A stretch of DNA of 23,197 nucleotides from a virus: the IMG/VR virus record IMGVR_UViG_3300042868_004379, positions 1 to 23,197 of that record. One strand, given 5' to 3'. Below, piece after piece: positions 3,250-14,954 of this stretch (positions are counted from its first letter, which is position 1; every line of letters begins with the position of its first letter). The notes below the pieces were generated by a model. That model worked only from the letters and a program-made list of their open reading frames with translations, did no database searches and was not told the origin of the DNA. A program made the translations under genes and the position numbers.

Positions 3250-3447
3250 ATGAACAATCAATTTCTAATTACAATTGAGACTAACACAACATCTGAATCA
3301 ATCTCTTCACATCAACTATTAAGAGATGCTAAAATGTGTGCTGATACCTACCTTACCACCAAGAAGTCTGAATACATAGAGTCTGAGAATCCAGCCATTG
3401 TAATTTGGGAAAATGACTTTATGGTTCAATACATCCCATTCTTTTAA
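3250..3447 (+). CDS. Small unknown protein
   Basis: A 65-residue protein, MNNQFLITIE at the N-terminus and ending in IPFF. A predicted N-terminal strand is followed by a helix (LLRDAKMCADTYLTTKK) and two C-terminal strands, a small alpha/beta arrangement common among early phage proteins. No recognised motif. The 71-base gap before it holds the terminator-like hairpin and an unstructured leader with AATCAAT repeats. There is no Shine-Dalgarno sequence. Confidence 0.65.
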   Translation: MNNQFLITIETNTTSESISSHQLLRDAKMCADTYLTTKKSEYIESENPAIVIWENDFMVQYIPFF

Positions 3448-3488
3448 TCAACTAATCTTCTAATCAATCAATCTAAAATTCATAAACT

Positions 3489-7036: not shown

Positions 7037-7340
7037 TTTTGCTGCTGGTCTCTACCTGAGTCCTTATATGGCAAATAAGCATAGGTCACAGAATCCAATC
7101 AAAGGGTATCCTGACTTATTCATTGCAGTACCTAAAGGTAACTTTGCTGGTCTATTCATTGAGATTAAAACAGATAAGGCTAACCCATTTAAGAAAGATG
7201 GTACATTAAAATCTAATGAGCATACTGAACGCCAAGCAGAGGTATTGAAAGCATTAAATGAAGTTGGCTATGCTGCACTATTTTCAACTGGTGTAGACGA
7301 AACAATTAAAGTGATTGAGAGTTATCTTAATCAAGAATAA
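6957..7340 (+). CDS. VRR-NUC domain nuclease
   Basis: A 127-residue protein consisting of a single VRR-NUC domain. Key elements are Glu5 near the N-terminus (SQEAEIYKVI), PDLFIAVPKG with the catalytic Asp, GLFIEIKTD with Glu-x-Lys, and HTERQAEVLKALNEVGYAA with the conserved Gln. This PD-(D/E)XK branch includes phage stand-alone nucleases and is linked to cleavage or resolution of branched DNA. I start it at ATG 6957 (MSQEAEIYK) because the motif begins there; an in-frame ATG at 6906 would add 17 unrelated residues. It overlaps the upstream gene by 80 bases. Confidence 0.85.
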   Translation: MSQEAEIYKVIARYLTLKHPKVIFRFDFAAGLYLSPYMANKHRSQNPIKGYPDLFIAVPKGNFAGLFIEIKTDKANPFKKDGTLKSNEHTERQAEVLKALNEVGYAALFSTGVDETIKVIESYLNQE

Positions 7341-7345
7341 TTTTA

Positions 7346-7353
7346 TATCTTAG
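7346..7353 (+). promoter_or_regulatory. Possible weak -7 box for the structured RNA
   Basis: TATCTTAG at 7346-7353 matches TAnnTTTG except for one base. No TTG lies at the expected distance upstream, so this is a weak candidate. If used, transcription would start near 7357, just before the structured RNA at 7363-7470. Confidence 0.3.
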
Positions 7354-7362
7354 CACCATTCA

Positions 7363-7470
7363 GAGGTAGTAGCCTGAGTGTATTGTAAAACTTTTCACCC
7401 TATGGTGACTGAGAGACTGAGAGTAAAATCAAAGTCGCTACTACCTCAGTCTTCATAGGGTATTTTTTTT
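7363..7470 (+). ncRNA. Structured RNA with mutually exclusive hairpins (attenuator/riboswitch-like leader or sRNA)
   Basis: The 133-base gap 7341-7473 contains a complex set of pairings. (a) GAGGTAGTAGC (7363-7373) pairs perfectly with GCTACTACCTC (7437-7447). (b) ACCCTATG (7397-7404) pairs with CATAGGGT (7454-7461), and directly inside it GACTGAG (7407-7413) pairs with CTCAGTC (7445-7451), making a 15-pair terminator stem followed by A and eight T (7463-7470). Stem (a) and the inner part of (b) share bases 7445-7447 and (a) crosses (b), so they compete. The T tract ends 3 bases before the ATG at 7474, which suits conditional termination. GACTGAGA is tandemly repeated at 7407-7422, giving another partner. 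No known riboswitch class is recognised. Confidence 0.6.
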
Positions 7471-7473
7471 ATT

Positions 7474-7692
7474 ATGAAACTGCAAGAACTAAGTCAAGAA
7501 GAATTAAGTGGAATGCTTATAAACCTTTACAATACACATAGGTTATTGTGTATTGAATATTTGACATATGCACAAAATGATGATTGTGAATTACATAAGA
7601 AAAGGTTAACTAAAGAATATATCAATGAGATATTGACAGATGGTATTGACCAAATTATACTACAAAATTGTTCATCTATAATTGGAGATTGA
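7474..7692 (+). CDS. Small unknown protein behind the attenuator-like RNA
   Basis: A 72-residue, mainly helical protein (LQELSQEELSGMLINLYNTH at the N-terminus) with three cysteines and no recognised motif. Its ATG lies 3 bases after the T tract of the structured RNA, so its expression would depend on read-through. It ends one base before the ATG of the replication-initiator gene (TGATATG), so the two are probably translated from one message. Confidence 0.65.
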   Translation: MKLQELSQEELSGMLINLYNTHRLLCIEYLTYAQNDDCELHKKRLTKEYINEILTDGIDQIILQNCSSIIGD

Positions 7693-7693
7693 T

Positions 7694-8365
7694 ATGAATA
7701 GCAGAGATACTTGCATCTTTTATCGGTCAATGTTTGAATCAATAAAAGAACTACCTAAAGAGAATCAGGCTGAGTTATACAATGCCATCTTTGAATACTC
7801 ATTAGACTTTGTTGAACCTACTTTAAGTGGTCTATCATTGACTATATGGAGACTGATAAGACCAGTATTGGAGAAAGGTAATGCTAACTATATCAATGGA
7901 AGTAAGCCGAAGACTAAGCAAACAAGAAGCGAAACCGAAGCGAAACCGAAGCCAATTGTAAGCGAACAAGAAGCGAAAGTGAAGCGACTTGTAAGCGAAA
8001 GTGAAGCCTATAAGGATAAGGATAAGGATAAGGATGAAGATAATGATAAGGATAAAGTTAAGAGTGCTAAAGCACCTAACTATACAAAATTTACTAATGA
8101 AGACCTTATTGAACAAATCAAACCATTTATAGATAAGTATGGTAAAGATTTTTGTAATGCTTTTTACTTTTATTGGTCTGAACCTTTGCCTAATGGTAAA
8201 ATGAGAATGACTGGTCAAAAGGCTTGGAATATAAATAGAAGACTTGTAAATTGGAAACAGACAGAAAAACAACCTACTAACACTACCAACTTTGTCAAGT
8301 CAGCACCAGTAGTCTTTAATCGTTCATCACAAGGTCAACACTATGTAGGTGACGATGTCAAATAA
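7694..8365 (+). CDS. Replication-initiator-type protein (DUF6291-like N-terminus) with repeat-encoded linker
   Basis: A 223-residue protein in three parts. Residues 1-70 (FYRSMFESIKELPKENQ, then IWRLIRPVLEKGN) resemble DUF6291, found in Bacteroidota phage proteins. Residues about 71-123 are a charged low-complexity linker with an approximate 11-residue repeat (SETEAK, SEQEAK, SESEAY) and then (KD)n. Residues about 130-195 (FTNEDLIEQIKPFI, FYFYWSE, TGQKAWNINRRLVNW) resemble the C-terminal domains of phage replication proteins. The linker DNA carries an 11-bp-spaced repeat array, recalling lambda O, whose gene contains the origin. I infer that it binds those repeats and recruits DnaB, encoded at 9108. 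ATG 7694 was chosen over TTG 7682. Confidence 0.65.
   Translation: MNSRDTCIFYRSMFESIKELPKENQAELYNAIFEYSLDFVEPTLSGLSLTIWRLIRPVLEKGNANYINGSKPKTKQTRSETEAKPKPIVSEQEAKVKRLVSESEAYKDKDKDKDEDNDKDKVKSAKAPNYTKFTNEDLIEQIKPFIDKYGKDFCNAFYFYWSEPLPNGKMRMTGQKAWNINRRLVNWKQTEKQPTNTTNFVKSAPVVFNRSSQGQHYVGDDVK
7904..8014 (+). repeat. Iteron-like array, 11-bp period, consensus AAGCGAAANNG; candidate replication origin
   Basis: Units beginning AAGC start at 7916, 7927, 7938, 7949, 7960, 7971, 7982, 7993 and 8004, exactly 11 bases apart; one more AAGC lies at 7904, 12 bases before. Five units read AAGCGAA, the others differ at one or two positions. Because 11 is not a multiple of 3, the same DNA word is read in all three codon phases, so the repetition is at the DNA level. 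The period is about one helical turn, placing the units on one face. Location inside the initiator-type gene, followed by an AT-rich repeat, matches the lambda origin layout. Origin function is inference. Confidence 0.7.
8011..8058 (+). repeat. Hexanucleotide repeat (TAAGGA)n next to the iterons
   Basis: Four perfect TAAGGA units run from 8011 to 8034, followed by TGAAGA, TAATGA, TAAGGA and a partial TAAAG up to about 8057. They encode Lys-Asp/Glu-Asp dipeptides in the linker. The repeat is in-frame (6 bases), so slippage would change linker length without breaking the gene. It could serve as the easily melted segment beside the iterons. Confidence 0.75.
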
Positions 8366-8412: not shown

Positions 8413-9066
8413 ATGAAATACAAAGTACTTAATTTATATGCTTGTCTTGGTGGTAATAGATACCTATGGACAGATTGTGAAGTTACTGCTATAGAACTTG
8501 ATTCAGAACTTGCAAGAATGTACCAAGAAAGGTTTCCAAATGATATAGTAATAGTTGCTGATGCACATCAATACTTACTTGACCATTATAAAGAGTTTGA
8601 TTTTATTTGGTCTTCACCACCTTGCCCAAGTCATAGCAGAGCAAGATACTGGACGAGTTCAAACTATGATACTAATGTTGAAGCAGTCTATCCTGATATG
8701 AAATTGTATGAAGAGATTTTATTCTTACAACATTATTATAGAACTGGTAAGTGGGTAGTTGAGAATGTCATACCATACTATGAACCATTGATAGCAGCAA
8801 AAAAAAGAGGTAGACATTTATACTGGACTAATTTTAATTTGCCAAGTGATTTAGGAGATAGAAGAATTCAGATAGGTGCTGGAACTGATGAACTAAAAAG
8901 GTTATGTGAATTTCATAAGATTGATATTTCATCATATAAAGGTGAACAAAGTATGATTAAGGTTGCACGTAACTTAGTAGACTATGATGCTGGTTTGACT
9001 ATCTACAATGTTGCACGAGGCATATTTGAAAAGTCTAAATTCAATCAAACATCATTATTTGAATAA
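8413..9066 (+). CDS. Compact C5 cytosine methyltransferase-like protein without a target recognition domain
   Basis: A 217-residue SAM-dependent methyltransferase of the C5-cytosine type. Motif I is LNLYACLGG (residues 6-14), the catalytic PC is in SSPPCPSHS (Cys71), motif VI is ENV (117-119), and a motif VIII-like RGRHLYW lies near 132-138. The usual variable target recognition region and motifs IX-X are missing or too reduced to recognise, and the length is well below the normal 300-400 residues. It is therefore either a minimal enzyme, one using another protein for specificity, or one modifying a different substrate. It follows the TACGTA repeats and precedes dnaB. No restriction enzyme gene is nearby. 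Confidence 0.72.
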   Translation: MKYKVLNLYACLGGNRYLWTDCEVTAIELDSELARMYQERFPNDIVIVADAHQYLLDHYKEFDFIWSSPPCPSHSRARYWTSSNYDTNVEAVYPDMKLYEEILFLQHYYRTGKWVVENVIPYYEPLIAAKKRGRHLYWTNFNLPSDLGDRRIQIGAGTDELKRLCEFHKIDISSYKGEQSMIKVARNLVDYDAGLTIYNVARGIFEKSKFNQTSLFE

Positions 9067-9107: not shown

Positions 9108-10493
9108 ATGACCAACCCACAACAAGCACTCATAGGTATCTTAATGACTGGTGATACCCATCAGGAACTTATACCACAACTTGGTGAGCATCTTTTCAAT
9201 GAGGTGCTTACCTCAAGATGTTATGCAGTAATCAAGAAAACAATTGATAAAGGACTTACTCCTAACTTGGTCAATTTCTTTATGACTGCCAATGAACTTG
9301 ATAAGTTCACACCTAAAGAAACATCTGAGATAGTGATGTGGTCAAACAACCTGACCTATAATGAACCAGTCAATGAATACATTGCCATTCTTAAAGACAA
9401 TCACATCAAGCGGTCAATAGCATCAATAGTAACTGAGCAGTCATTAGGTCTTATCAATAACGATGGTTACACAACTGCCACATCAATAATTAAATCTCTT
9501 ACCAACCTACTTGATACTGGTACTAACTCAGATAATATTATTGACCTTTCTGAACTAACCAATGATGAACGTGAGGCATACTATCGTAGGGCAGCACTAA
9601 CACTATCAGGTAAGACTACTGGTCTTGAGACTGGTCTAAAGTCACTAAATAAGTTTACGGGTGGTTTTCATCCTGAGTTCATTATCATTGCTGGTAGACC
9701 AAGTATGGGTAAGACTGCATTAGCATTATTTCACGGAATGAAAAGTGGTGAGGCTGGTATCTATTTTAATCTTGAGATGAATAAGTCTCAACTATGTCAA
9801 AGGTTAATTTTACAAGATGCTGGTGATTCAATCCACTCTTCAAGGTTACGTGATGGTAACCTTAGTCAATCTGAGTTACATTCATTTGAAAAGGTAATAG
9901 GTAACATTGAGAAACAACCATTTCTAATCTACGATAAGGCAAGGTGTGGTGTACACGAGGCAATAAGGGTAATGAAGAGAGAGCATCGTAAGGGAAGGTG
10001 CAAGTGGGCAATTATTGACTACTTGCAACTAATGACCATAGAAGGGTTTAAAGGTGGCAATAGAGAGGCAGAGGTAGCTGAGATTAGTAGAACTTTAAAA
10101 GCAGCACAAAAAGAACTTGGCATACCAATTATAGCACTTGCTCAGTTGAGCAGAGAAGTTGAAAAGAGACCTGATAAGAAACCAATCCTATCTGACTTAC
10201 GTGAGTCAGGTTCATTAGAGCAAGATGCAGATAGTGTAGCTTTCGTTTGGAGACCATCATACTATGGATTGAATGATGAAGATGGTAATCCATACACTAA
10301 TCACATCTTCTACCTATTTGAGAAACATAGACAAGGTGCTACTGGTGTGGTTGAGTTCAGGCATTCACCTAACATGACCAACTTTACTGATGTGGTTACA
10401 CATGATATTGGTAGTACATACTTACCACAACCTAAAGACCTAAGACATTATGCAGACAAAGACTGGGACAAAGACACCAACCAACCATTCTGA
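9108..10493 (+). CDS. dnaB: Replicative DNA helicase, DnaB family
   Basis: A 461-residue DnaB-type hexameric helicase that unwinds DNA at the replication fork. The N-terminal helical domain begins at once (NPQQALIGIL), a linker follows, then the RecA-like domain with Walker A GRPSMGKT (196-203), a DnaB signature IYFNLEMNKSQL, Walker B WAIIDYLQLM (Asp304), and DLRESGSLEQDADSVAFVWR (363-382) typical of DnaB. There is no fused primase domain and no primase gene in the window, so host or distal primase would be needed. The start at 9108 is fixed by the N-terminal domain, which makes the promoter box 7 bases upstream notable. Confidence 0.95.
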   Translation: MTNPQQALIGILMTGDTHQELIPQLGEHLFNEVLTSRCYAVIKKTIDKGLTPNLVNFFMTANELDKFTPKETSEIVMWSNNLTYNEPVNEYIAILKDNHIKRSIASIVTEQSLGLINNDGYTTATSIIKSLTNLLDTGTNSDNIIDLSELTNDEREAYYRRAALTLSGKTTGLETGLKSLNKFTGGFHPEFIIIAGRPSMGKTALALFHGMKSGEAGIYFNLEMNKSQLCQRLILQDAGDSIHSSRLRDGNLSQSELHSFEKVIGNIEKQPFLIYDKARCGVHEAIRVMKREHRKGRCKWAIIDYLQLMTIEGFKGGNREAEVAEISRTLKAAQKELGIPIIALAQLSREVEKRPDKKPILSDLRESGSLEQDADSVAFVWRPSYYGLNDEDGNPYTNHIFYLFEKHRQGATGVVEFRHSPNMTNFTDVVTHDIGSTYLPQPKDLRHYADKDWDKDTNQPF

Positions 10494-10599
10494 ACCATTA
10501 CCTTGTGAGTTCAACTACTACGAAATAAGAGGTGGTAAGTGCGAATTTGCAAAGGTGTATTATGGTAAGATATTTTGTACTAATAAGAATTGTAAATAA
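10450..10599 (+). CDS. Small four-cysteine protein overlapping the dnaB end
   Basis: A 49-residue ORF in another frame, from ATG 10450 inside the last codons of dnaB to TAA 10597-10599. The stop overlaps the ATG of the next methyltransferase (TAATG), suggesting coupled translation. The first residues are Thr/Lys-rich (MQTKTGTKTPT). The remainder holds cysteines at 19, 31, 43 and 48 in an aromatic, basic context (CEFNYYEIRGGKCEF, FCTNKNC), compatible with a small zinc-binding fold. It fills the 105-base gap between dnaB and the methyltransferase. Start uncertain; function unknown. Confidence 0.5.
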   Translation: MQTKTGTKTPTNHSEPLPCEFNYYEIRGGKCEFAKVYYGKIFCTNKNCK

Positions 10600-11702
10600 T
10601 GATAAAAGTAGGTAGTGATTTTTCAGGTGTTGGTGCATTCAATCAAGCATTGATAAGATTAGGAATTGATTTTGAAGAGGTATATGCTTGTGATATGGAT
10701 AAGTATGCAAGGCAAACATACATTCACAATTATGGTGAACCATCGTACTATCCAACAAATGTCTATGATAGAGTAATACCAAAAGATTCACTTGACATAT
10801 ATATGACATCTCCACCTTGCCAAGCATTCTCATTAGCTGGTAAGAGATTAGGAAAAGAAGATAAAAGAGGTATCTTATTTTTTAACTCACTTGAGTTCAT
10901 CAAGCAAAACAAACCACGTTATTTTATATTTGAGAATGTTAAAGGTTTGCTTTCAGATGATGGTGGTAAGACATTTAGTGAATGGGTTAACCTACTTGGT
11001 GGTAAGTCAGTCAATGGAAACCAAATTTTATTTCCTTATGAAGATTCAGTACCTTATCACTTATATTGGGAAGTTCTTAATGCTAAAGAGCATGGAGTGC
11101 CACAAAATCGTGAAAGAGTATTTTTAGTTGGTATTCGTGATGATTCAGATAATAACTTTAGATTTCCAATTGAAGAACATTTAACTAAAAGATTGAAAGA
11201 TGTACTTGAACAAATTGTAGATGATAAATATATTATTACACAAGAAAAAATTGAATATTTAAAAAGAAGTGATGATACAGGTTGGGGTAAAAATTTTATT
11301 GATGATGAAAAAGATATATCATATTGTATTGATGCATCTTATTCTAAAGGACATCGTGGAGCAACAGTTGTTAAAACTGAACAAAATAATGTTAAAGTTG
11401 GGGACTATAGAAGTGATGAAGGTTTTAGGTGGAGAAAAGATGGTAATTCTCCAGCAATTATGGCAATGATGAGAGATACATGGAAAGAAAATTATACTGG
11501 ACAAAATCCACCAATTATAGAAAAAGATTATAAAATAAGAAGACTTACACCACGTGAGTGTTTTAGATTAATGGACTTTCCCGATACATTTACTTGGACT
11601 TGTTCAGATAGTCAAGCATACAAACAGGCTGGTAATTCAATTGTTGTGAATGTTCTTTATAAGATATTAAAGAATTTAAACCTATCAATAAGTACAACGT
11701 AA
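10599..11702 (+). CDS. DNA (cytosine-5-)-methyltransferase
   Basis: A 367-residue, full-length C5 methyltransferase that transfers a methyl group from SAM to cytosine in DNA. Motif I FSGVGAFNQAL (residues 8-18), motif IV SPPCQAFS with catalytic Cys74, motif VI ENVKGL (Glu112), motif VIII QNRERVFLVG (169-178), a variable target-recognition region of about 130 residues, motif IX RRLTPRECFRLMDFP (314-328) and motif X YKQAGNSIVVNV (341-352) are all present in order. No restriction partner is seen, so it is probably an orphan enzyme protecting phage DNA or marking it. The target-recognition part is very AT-rich, even for this window. ATG overlaps the upstream small ORF by one base. Confidence 0.94.
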   Translation: MIKVGSDFSGVGAFNQALIRLGIDFEEVYACDMDKYARQTYIHNYGEPSYYPTNVYDRVIPKDSLDIYMTSPPCQAFSLAGKRLGKEDKRGILFFNSLEFIKQNKPRYFIFENVKGLLSDDGGKTFSEWVNLLGGKSVNGNQILFPYEDSVPYHLYWEVLNAKEHGVPQNRERVFLVGIRDDSDNNFRFPIEEHLTKRLKDVLEQIVDDKYIITQEKIEYLKRSDDTGWGKNFIDDEKDISYCIDASYSKGHRGATVVKTEQNNVKVGDYRSDEGFRWRKDGNSPAIMAMMRDTWKENYTGQNPPIIEKDYKIRRLTPRECFRLMDFPDTFTWTCSDSQAYKQAGNSIVVNVLYKILKNLNLSISTT

Positions 11703-13230: not shown

Positions 13231-13677
13231 ATGGAAGCACAAGACGAACCTAATAAGGGAGGTAGACCAACTAAGTACAAGGAGGCATTTAATGACCAAG
13301 TATTTGAAATGGCTCTTCTTGGTTTATCAGATAGCCAAATGGCAAACATCTTAGGTATAACTGAACAAACATTAAACAATTGGAAAACCGAACACCCAAT
13401 GTTTTTTGAGTCATTAACGCAAGGGAAAGAGAATGCAGACGGCAAAGTAGCCAAAGCAATGTACAAACGTGCATTAGGTTTAACCATCATTGAAGAGGCA
13501 TTGACTAAAGATGGTCAGATAGTTCAGTTGAGAAAAGAACTGCCACCTGATACTCCAGCAGCGAAACATTGGTTAGCCAATAGACAAAGGAAACTTTGGG
13601 CAAACAATGGTGAAAGCACGATGTACACTACTGAGCCACTAATCATCATAAGGACTGAGGGAGACAAAGATGAATGA
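13231..13677 (+). CDS. Terminase small subunit
   Basis: A 148-residue TerS-type protein that recognises phage DNA for packaging and regulates the large subunit. The N-terminus GGRPTKYKEAF and the HTH (GLSDSQMANILGITEQTLNNW, then HPMFFESLTQGKENADGKV) are typical of phage small terminases with a DNA-binding domain followed by an oligomerisation helix (VAKAMYKRALG). The conserved tail PPDTPAAKHWLANRQRKLW is also characteristic. The stop overlaps the large-subunit ATG by 4 bases. It is the first gene after the promoter at 13197-13225. Confidence 0.9.
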   Translation: MEAQDEPNKGGRPTKYKEAFNDQVFEMALLGLSDSQMANILGITEQTLNNWKTEHPMFFESLTQGKENADGKVAKAMYKRALGLTIIEEALTKDGQIVQLRKELPPDTPAAKHWLANRQRKLWANNGESTMYTTEPLIIIRTEGDKDE

Positions 13678-14954
13678 GTTTCAAGTTAACCAAACGTCAA
13701 ACAACTGCATACGACTTAGCAGTTAATGGTGTTAAGAAAGTAATAGTCTTTGGTGGCGCAATTCGAGGTGGTAAGACCTACTGGTTACTACTAACTCTAT
13801 CATCACTCTGTTTACTCTACCCACGTTCAAGATGGGTAATCATTCGTAAGACCTTACCCGATTTAAAGAGGACAACCTTTCCATCATTTAGTTCAATACT
13901 TAACGATGGCTTGAATCAATACATTAGTTCATGGAATCGTGAGACCAATGTAGTTACATTCACTAATGGTAGTGTACTAATCTTTATGGCTGAATCATTT
14001 GATGATGATAAGGACTTGAATAGGTTCAGAGGGTTAGAAGTAAATGGTGCTGGGTTAGATGAAGTGAATGAGTTACAAGAAGCAACCTTCTACAAGGTGC
14101 AAGAAAGGATAGGTAGTTGGAATAAGGCAATAGGTCAACCACCAATAGTATGTTTGGCTACTTGCAACCCTGCTAACAATTGGGTTAAGTCAGTTATCTA
14201 TGAAAGGTGGAGAAACAATACACTACCTGATAAGTGGTCTTACATCAACTCACGTATCACAGATAACCCATACATCAGTCAAGACTATCTTGAGTCACTT
14301 AAAGAGTTACCACCAATTCAGTATGCAAGATTCGTAGAAGGTGACTGGGATGTAATGGACGATGTATCTAACCCATTCTTATATGCGTGGGATGATGATA
14401 GACACATAGACGATTCACTAACCATCAATCCTAACCTACCAGTATTCATATCAGTCGATTTTAATATTAACCCACTATCAGCATTAATCATCCAGCAACA
14501 TACAACTAAGGGGTGTTCAGTAGTTGGTGAAATTAACATTGACAAGGGTAGCATTGATGCTTTCTGTGATTATGTTGAGAGTCTTAATGTACCTCGTGGT
14601 TTGTTAAGAATAACTGGTGATGCAATGGGTAATGGTCGCAGCATTCAGCAACGTGATAACTCAAGTGCCTATACCCAAATCAAAAGAAGGTTATACCTTG
14701 CTGACTCACAGATAATCATACCAGCTAACCCTACGCACTATAATAGTCGAATAGACTGCAATAACGCATTAACAAGACTTGATGTAAAGGTCAACTCAGT
14801 TAGGTGTAAAGGATTCGTTTATGATGCTAAACAAGTACAATGTAATAGTGATGGTGGTATAATAAAGTCAAACAGAAAAAACTTATCAGAGAGGGCAGAT
14901 TTTCTTGATTGTTTCCGTTACTTTGTAAATTCAATTTTAAAAAGATACCTATGA
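13674..14954 (+). CDS. Terminase large subunit
   Basis: A 426-residue packaging motor. The N-terminal ATPase has Walker A GGAIRGGKT (27-35), Walker B GAGLDEVNEL (Asp129, Glu130) and a coupling motif near LATCNPANNW (161-170). The C-terminal RNase H-like nuclease has acidic residues Asp262 (ISVDFN), Asp316 (ITGDAMGN) and Asp409/Asp412 (ADFLDCFRYF). Both activities needed to cut concatemers and drive DNA into proheads are therefore intact. No portal gene follows, which is unusual. The next ORF starts in an ATGA overlap with the stop. Confidence 0.96.
   Translation: MSFKLTKRQTTAYDLAVNGVKKVIVFGGAIRGGKTYWLLLTLSSLCLLYPRSRWVIIRKTLPDLKRTTFPSFSSILNDGLNQYISSWNRETNVVTFTNGSVLIFMAESFDDDKDLNRFRGLEVNGAGLDEVNELQEATFYKVQERIGSWNKAIGQPPIVCLATCNPANNWVKSVIYERWRNNTLPDKWSYINSRITDNPYISQDYLESLKELPPIQYARFVEGDWDVMDDVSNPFLYAWDDDRHIDDSLTINPNLPVFISVDFNINPLSALIIQQHTTKGCSVVGEINIDKGSIDAFCDYVESLNVPRGLLRITGDAMGNGRSIQQRDNSSAYTQIKRRLYLADSQIIIPANPTHYNSRIDCNNALTRLDVKVNSVRCKGFVYDAKQVQCNSDGGIIKSNRKNLSERADFLDCFRYFVNSILKRYL

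Follow-up and report, generated by a model that had tools for sequence, protein, structure and literature searches.

A covariation-supported pseudoknot RNA with its own terminator precedes phage replication-initiator genes and is a candidate attenuating leader

We analysed a window of 23,197 bases, an IMG/VR virus record whose long ORFs lie on the + strand, and found that its positions 7357-7470 form a structured RNA composed of a 5' hairpin (P1), an inner hairpin (P3), an intrinsic terminator (P2) and an 8-bp pseudoknot (PK), which ties the P1 loop to the apical loop of the terminator (Table 1). The RNA belongs to a covariation-supported family tied to replication-initiator genes, comprising 104 distinct group I sequences together with phages of unrelated RNA sequence that have the same architecture. 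We lean towards reading it as a leader that attenuates the replication operon and that, when terminated, would yield a small RNA; that the RNA is transcribed and terminates, that read-through is regulated and that replication is the target, we infer from sequence. A role in timing replication, as the initial annotation suggested, is plausible. That annotation had described two stems before a start codon, and these elements are all present: 11 exact pairs between 7363-7373 and 7437-7447, the 8 + 7 terminator pairs, eight T and the ATG at 7474. P1 and P3 are additional to them. The flagged stretch has a minimum free energy of -36.5 kcal/mol against -25.4 ± 3.4 kcal/mol for shuffled sequences (z -3.3), and 0 of 200 shuffles was as good. 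P2 is not listed by a simple terminator scan with a loop limit of 8.

Table 1. Elements of the RNA and of the surrounding locus in the window.
Feature	Position	Strand	Details
Holliday-resolvase/endonuclease-like gene	ends 7340		upstream of RNA; PHROG matches
Alternative, overlapping -7 box TAATTTTA	7338-7345	+	one base off consensus; predicted start ~7350
-7 box TATCTTAG, Bacteroidetes type TAnnTTTG	7346-7353	+	predicted start ~7358
P1, 5' hairpin	7357-7380	+	7357-7363 pairs with 7374-7380; 10-nt loop 7364-7373
PK 5' strand GTAGTAGC	7366-7373	+	inside P1 loop; partner 7437-7444
P2 lower stem, 5' arm	7397-7404	+	partner 7454-7461, 8 pairs
P2 upper stem, 5' arm	7407-7413	+	partner 7445-7451, 7 pairs
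P3, inner hairpin	7415-7436	+	7415-7418/7433-7436 plus 7421-7422/7429-7430
PK 3' strand GCTACTAC	7437-7444	+	in terminator apical loop, directly 5' of P2 upper 3' arm
P2 3' arms, intrinsic terminator	7445-7461	+	7445-7451 and 7454-7461
U tract, eight T	7463-7470	+	predicted RNA 3' end
72-aa ORF	7474-7692	+	directly 3' of RNA; ATG at 7474
DUF6291 gene, presumed replication initiator	7694-8365	+	PF19808 (5e-14); phrog_19415
Origin-like repeats within DUF6291 gene	7904-8062	+	11-nt iterons 7904-8013, then ATAAGG-type 6-nt repeats 8010-8062
C5-cytosine-methylase-like gene	8413-9066		between DUF6291 gene and DnaB
DnaB-like replicative helicase	9108-10493	+	same module; PF03796 (1.1e-73)
Second C5-cytosine-methylase-like gene	10599-11702		other side of DnaB; by eye only
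Terminase gene	13674-14954		distant from RNA

Relatives were collected both with the neighbouring genes and with the RNA itself. IMG/VR scans with the 72-aa ORF returned 1 locus, those with the upstream gene 56, and those with the DUF6291 gene 88, of which 80 were kept. Of the 66 stretches from a first scan with an RNA pattern, 46 carry the RNA, and the other 20 (including L152) are chance matches, which were dropped before counting; in a second scan, 80 of 83 stretches were considered, giving 77 new loci and at least 68 with the RNA. Diverged members were retrieved with R1, a covariance model built without the pseudoknot. Two alignments resulted, A1 (39 rows, 38 distinct) and A2 (80 rows, 76 distinct), with identical rows counted once; L033 and L121 (both cut), L066 and the repeats L042, L074, L082 and L109 stand outside both. 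The nested helices of A2 were fitted by R1, and the PK is therefore an out-of-model test in this alignment.

Comparison of homologous leaders, the check that had been proposed for this RNA, revealed strong covariation in both alignments. In A1, 97.9% of 1366 cells were paired (89.2% in shuffled alignments), and both-side changes numbered 116 against 37.7, a value reached by 0 of 500 shuffles. Pairs with a both-side change numbered 13 against 9.2 (5 of 500 shuffles reach this), and the diversity of pair types was no better than in shuffles (230 of 500). A2 had 97.4% of 2724 cells paired and 359 both-side changes against 99.5, distributed over 28 of 36 pairs (0 of 500 shuffles), with all five covariation measures above every shuffle. 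When the partners were slid by 1-3 columns as a control, pairing fell to 29-45%.

All four helices (P1, PK, P2 and P3) are supported by covariation in these alignments. P1 showed both-side changes in 7 of 7 pairs, with 97.5% of A2 cells paired and its outermost pair failing in 12 of 76 rows, and P2 as a whole showed them in 10 of 14 pairs, with 99.9% of A2 cells paired. In P3, such changes occurred in three of the four outer pairs and in both inner pairs, the fourth outer pair being weak (unpaired in 42 of 76). The 11-pair stem of the initial annotation is conserved only as an 8-pair core, 7366-7373 with 7437-7444, which is the PK: this core was Watson-Crick in 608 of 608 cells across the 76 distinct group I rows, and in 296 of 296 cells of the 37 rows absent from A1. 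It was also paired in 28 of 28 further distinct sequences, whose search pattern fixed the last two bases of the PK 3' strand, so that it is exactly paired in 104 distinct group I sequences (76 + 28).

Beyond this core, 64 of 76 rows can pair at the columns of 7365-7445 and 14 of 76 at those of 7364-7446, and the seventh upper P2 pair, 7413-7445, is G-C in 76 of 76. The stems thus cross, as had been annotated, but their overlap at 7445-7447 is not conserved. As no base belongs to both the conserved PK core and the conserved P2 core, we see the RNA as a single composite pseudoknot, crossing without conserved overlap, and not two exclusive hairpins; both cores are kept in all 76 distinct rows, and the idea that the named stems compete as exclusive alternatives has to be abandoned. 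The same covariation bears on the simplest account, an ordinary terminator of the upstream gene with everything else due to chance. The RNA indeed follows the VRR-NUC-like gene, as we call the Holliday-resolvase/endonuclease-like gene ending at 7340 in the window, in many relatives. However, the same RNA occurs without such a gene directly upstream, and a terminator needs no covariation in P1, PK and P3. As a full account this explanation is refuted by the covariation of P1 and PK, and we give it next to no credence.

In consensus folds of the nascent RNA, the PK helix is favoured once the PK 3' strand has been made and P2 forms afterwards, and a kinetic order of PK first and terminator second, without exclusivity, is therefore likely in these models. 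The window itself offers another pairing, as CACCAT near the RNA 5' end matches ATGGTG in the terminator 5' arms (6 bp), and single-sequence folds of the nascent window RNA use that terminator arm before its partner is made. An exact CACCAT/ATGGTG match is present in 19 of the 76 distinct rows, and 28 of 76 have five or more Watson-Crick pairs of any kind. In the consensus folds, the lower arm of the terminator pairs with nothing before the opposite arm has been made, revealing no family-wide antiterminator. The CACCAT strand may possibly act as a pre-emptor in a subset, and not as a family feature. The tandem GACTGAGA (7407-7422), thought to offer a third pairing, is repeated in tandem in only 1 of 76 distinct RNAs.

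A ligand riboswitch or a leader-peptide attenuator would place a terminator just before a start codon, as seen here, and could make use of the CACCAT/ATGGTG alternative or of the ORF lying across the terminator in the window. Yet no mutually exclusive stems are conserved family-wide, and the leader peptide proposed from the ORF at 7402-7458 did not hold up in relatives: the ORF is not conserved, its ATG occurring in 40 of 76, with frames of 5-33 codons (18 codons in 10 of 76) or, in 2 of them, no frame closed in 60. Replication genes would also be an unusual riboswitch target, and we judge both of these mechanisms highly improbable.

The RNA appears to have its own promoter. A box of the form TAnnTT[TA][GA] adjoins P1 in 73 of the 76 distinct relatives, always in the same position, and is a strict TAnnTTTG in 23. 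Since the flavobacterial -7 box spans -12 to -5 from the start (excerpts of PMC6847099 and PMC9723704), the predicted +1 is A7358, at the base of P1. In 21 of the 76, a strict TAnnTTTG lies further upstream than this box. At the other end, the 8 nt after P2 contain a mean of 6.4 T (minimum 4) over the 76 distinct relatives, and the terminated product is predicted to be ~112-120 nt. The alternative offered initially, a roughly 110-base RNA with its own 3' terminator, is therefore supported, and it is compatible with the attenuator reading. On the minus strand, TAnnTTTG motifs are scattered, with at most 7 hits per 5-nt bin over the 76 RNAs and no conserved antisense promoter box; an antisense promoter of this type was rejected on these grounds.

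The RNA precedes a small gene and an initiator-type gene with iterons, as had been noted, these being the 72-aa ORF and the DUF6291 gene with its internal repeats. The 72-aa ORF has no match in Pfam or PHROG and is swapped for other genes or missing in relatives. To see what stays, we used the 114 RNA-bearing loci found by RNA pattern alone, with near-identical contigs counted separately. An initiator-type gene lies downstream in 101 of the 102 loci with at least 1 kb (77 DUF6291-like, 24 O-like or similar); the two initiator profiles were built from genes seen behind the RNA, and this count therefore tests position, not function. The distance from the RNA to the initiator, measured to the start of the profile match, is ~0-13 nt in 69 loci, 185-232 in 23, 322-326 in 6 and 540-705 in 3, meaning that in 32 of 101 loci the initiator stands 185-705 nt away with other genes between. 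Where 4 kb or more of downstream sequence was available, DnaB was found in 61 of 64 loci. With 3 of the 114 loci omitted for having <150 nt beyond the RNA, the first ORF begins between -6 and +9 nt of the RNA end in 111 of 111; for the loci of one scan this end came from the model, and for those of the other it is an estimate based on the pattern. The one exception to the initiator rule, L321, has an HNH-like and then a helicase-like gene behind the RNA (labels by eye), and neither initiator family was found there. Two loci, L058 and L123, carry a DUF6291 gene without such an RNA by eye.

The protein encoded behind the RNA is not constant. Among initiator proteins from four relatives, two match PF19808 (DUF6291), two phrog_678 ('replication initiation O-like') and two phrog_6451 ('primosomal protein'), and the protein of L164 matches only phrog_19415 (function not annotated) plus a weak hit. 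Group I RNA thus precedes quite different genes, and initiator families are exchanged behind it, which argues against its serving any one protein. The earlier proposal that it controls, or is controlled by, a specific protein is accordingly not supported; what stands of the proposed riboswitch or protein-controlled attenuator is a terminator-bearing, attenuator-like RNA before the initiator region, without the conserved exclusive switch or the single controlling protein. By eye, the initiators of L006, L008, L162 and the window have unlike N-terminal families and a common C-terminal tail like FVKSAPVVFNRSSQGQHYVGDD, as if N-terminal cassettes were exchanged between the RNA and this tail. The repeats have counterparts in some relatives: L100 (3201-3359) and L127 (3203-3305) carry arrays resembling those at 7904-8062 of the window, and no such 11-nt iterons appear among the repeats listed for L018 around its O-like gene, or in 395 nt of L004.

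These observations suggest the following mechanism. A dedicated promoter would start the transcript at ~7358 (or 7350), which would fold as a composite pseudoknot of P1, P3 and P2, with the PK linking the loops of P1 and of the terminator. Most transcripts would stop at the U tract after ~112-120 nt, and the replication operon would be expressed mainly by read-through: with the next ORF within a few nt of the RNA end there is no room for a further promoter, and downstream expression needs read-through unless a start lies inside the RNA. The closeness of the ORF alone is weak evidence for attenuation, phages being compact. The RNA would act as a built-in attenuator keeping initiator and helicase output low. 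In Flavobacterium johnsoniae, translation is tuned by structure near the start codon (excerpt of PMC6847099), and the terminator hairpin beside the start codon would therefore also hinder ribosomes on the read-through mRNA. As initiators of different families sit behind the same RNA, control would lie not with one initiator but with the RNA itself, with the host RNA polymerase or with some other shared factor.

The same elements could instead belong to a stand-alone trans-acting small RNA, whose fold serves a target elsewhere (host or phage RNA or protein), whose terminator is simply its 3' end and whose leaky read-through feeds the replication genes. It would account for the promoter-like box and terminator, for the variable genes behind the RNA, for conserved unpaired bases that could be binding sites, and for the single RNA locus in each of 18 of 18 contigs (34-39 kb, chosen for carrying the RNA), where 5 weaker hits are the reverse strand of that locus. 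However, in 101 of the 102 loci found by RNA alone it is tied to the replication module, and the architecture persists there in phages without detectable RNA sequence similarity. We therefore hold this reading to be possible but on the unlikely side.

The diversity of the PK raises the question of whether an RNA, rather than a repressor protein, sets replication and mutual exclusion among related phages. In such a trans feedback, the P1 loop of the terminated RNA would pair with the PK strand of nascent leaders and cause termination, giving copy control and exclusion of related superinfecting phages. A tree built without the PK gave 7, 1, 0, 16, 8, 17, 0, 15 and 1 changes for the nine PK pairs, so that three of them change 15-17 times, on both sides each time, against a mean of 7.7 for unpaired columns. 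G-U pairs occur in 0 of 608 core PK cells and in 78 of 1824 cells of the other helices. The 17 PK words in A2 form cognate duplexes with a mean of -10.2 kcal/mol against -2.6 kcal/mol for non-cognate ones, and 1% of non-cognate pairs come within 2 kcal of the cognate mean. Pairs that change fast and are yet always paired would fit a specificity element, a self/non-self address, without being proof of one. Against this, the nine-pair mean of 7.2 is no higher than that of P1 (7.4), with P3 at 8.3, lower P2 at 3.9, upper P2 at 1.7 and unpaired columns reaching 21; identical PKs occur in 42 of 56 close sequence pairs; a partner in cis is in every case nearer than one in trans; and any sequence change lowers non-cognate pairing. 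Trees of ~110 nt in mosaic genomes are also weak, as recombination and a short alignment could inflate the change counts. We regard the feedback as improbable on balance. The related notion of a leader carrying its own address, acting in trans on nascent leaders through an 8-bp, strictly Watson-Crick match of diversifying loops in copy control and in superinfection-exclusion groups, independently of the initiator, is in our view similarly doubtful; if true, it would mean RNA-coded exclusion groups whichever initiator protein a phage carries. An integrase was found in 0 of the 18 RNA-bearing contigs (34-39 kb, not necessarily complete) and in 14 of 14 control genomes, which makes prophage immunity unlikely, and that form of the feedback was set aside.

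Another candidate role is that of a structural or replication RNA: a primer, an origin-bound RNA or a multimer held by an intermolecular PK. The phi29 packaging RNA is a phage RNA of this last kind with variable complementary loops, and it is included in the Rfam library. The origin-like iterons begin ~430 nt downstream of our RNA, and the PK could form between molecules too. Yet the predicted 3' end falls well short of the iterons, no match exists in the whole Rfam library, and the terminase gene is far away, so that we consider such a role very unlikely. The phi29 RNA shares the similar size and the variable complementary loops, whereas it has another gene neighbourhood and our RNA ends in a terminator before replication genes and has no Rfam match.

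Of the 80 DUF6291 loci, 58 have a group I RNA, 2 have too little upstream sequence and 20 do not match. Among the 20, L123 has nothing comparable, and the other 19 comprise 11 sequences and 8 repeats. Ten of the 11 were tested, and each has a -7 box, a terminator and a 6-9 bp crossing match between the 5' region and the terminator loop; this match was reached by 3-97 of 1000 shuffles, the controls being weak for L112 (97), L130 (76) and L138 (29). The automated terminator pick was poor for L125, and L119 carries the RNA of L118 by eye. A group II alignment of 14 RNAs contains 11 different PK words of 7-8 bp, each the best match picked by script without a shuffle control, which makes its exactness partly a matter of construction. 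The 4-5 bp stem that closes the loop covaries in group II (GCGG/CTGC, GTTG/CAAT, GTCG/CGAC, CGTG/CACG, GTAG/CTAC, ACTG/CAGT and TGCG/CGCA); the automated P1 was wrong for L372, L388 and L397, where this stem was seen by eye, and L377 and L389, with a weak 6-bp PK, are outside alignment A4. Distant phages thus retain the architecture, with unrelated RNA sequence, in front of the same kind of gene. A third architecture is visible by eye upstream of the initiator in L125, L402 and L413, in which the 5' end of the transcript matches the loop of the terminator over 9-10 bp without the P1-loop arrangement: the PK strand of L125 does not sit in a plain hairpin loop, and L402 and L413 resemble it. Fourteen of the 40 loci viewed (of 46) have no such RNA by eye (L392, L399-L401, L405-L412, L415 and L416).

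Searches outside these records gave little. R1 had 0 matches in 80 of 85 stretches from a pattern scan of genome contigs, and 0 in 395 Bacteroidota genomes under stricter filters than for virus records (18 of 18 detected there). Cultured phages contain no match to the window RNA; the RNA of L100 has one 21-nt match among them, in a human-gut phage record with no RNA by eye and no R1 match, and one 22-nt match among plasmids, taken as chance. In Riemerella phages that have DUF6291-type genes no such RNA is visible by eye, and R1 matches neither of two Riemerella loci nor a Nitratiruptor locus. The hosts of the RNA-bearing phages are presumed to be Bacteroidetes. The methylase-like gene at 8413-9066 is 78.8% identical over 368 nt to a DNA methyltransferase gene of the Flavobacterium phages hemulen and stinky. 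Rfam 15 gave 0 matches at the gathering cut-off for the window and the loci of 11 relatives, the best sub-threshold hit being MicF at 21.6 bits against 79. No description of this RNA was found in open-licence PMC papers, which were also searched for DUF6291 or like leaders. Judged by Rfam and these papers, the family is apparently new. Another candidate RNA of Bacteroidetes near phage genes is HMP_4078, of 109 bp (excerpt of PMC8040213).

The closest parallels among known systems are the plasmid rep leaders of pT181 and pIP501, the P4 CI RNA and Gifsy-1 IsrK. We assign the RNA to none of these, and the family most likely works as a variant of replication-leader attenuation. In the excerpted text of PMC5703833, the rep leaders of pT181 and pIP501 have a terminator immediately upstream of the initiator start codon, and a counter-transcribed antisense RNA decides the outcome, in pT181 together with a pre-emptor; pT181 has its origin within rep, replication is set by RNA pairing, and closely related plasmids differ in incompatibility group. 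The phage RNA shares the terminator signature directly before the initiator start codon, with one small ORF between in the window, and, like pT181, the window has origin-like repeats inside the initiator gene. Unlike these plasmids, it has no conserved minus-strand TAnnTTTG promoter box, and its complementary strands lie within one RNA. A match resembling a pre-emptor is seen in a subset (19 of 76 exact, 28 of 76 with at least five pairs).

Phage RNAs offer further comparisons, one being the P4 CI RNA, which is grouped with C4 RNA. C4 RNA is RF01695 (excerpt of PMC2864571), and CI RNA, according to the excerpt of PMC4825925, arises by processing of a longer transcript, base-pairs with sites flanking it on either side and blocks the phage's own replication genes by premature termination via RNA-RNA pairing. 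Ours is likewise a phage RNA with a terminator at its own replication genes, where its action is inferred, but its fold differs and it has no match in the whole Rfam library, C4 model included. In Gifsy-1, one promoter yields the terminated short RNA IsrK and a read-through mRNA. IsrK acts in trans on this mRNA, where it activates the translation of an ORF whose expression leads to an antiterminator (excerpt of PMC4825925). One promoter with a terminated short form and a read-through mRNA is also predicted here; IsrK has no replication initiator, and the likeness is one of description only.

Some loci show additional elements near the RNA. Between the VRR-NUC-like gene and the RNA of L012, at ~3405-3480, a tRNA-like element is seen by eye, and ARAGORN calls no tRNA. 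In L004 (from 3385), L005, L011, L015, L026, L027, L036 and L045, the VRR-NUC-like gene is followed by a terminator-like element of another kind, which has a 5' hairpin and lies shortly before another gene; a group I RNA is present further downstream in these loci. One contig of 62 kb, IMGVR_UViG_3300037493_001386 (L065/L157 and L043/L071/L200), contains two RNA-plus-initiator modules with different PK words, and represents either two phages joined in assembly or one phage with two modules.
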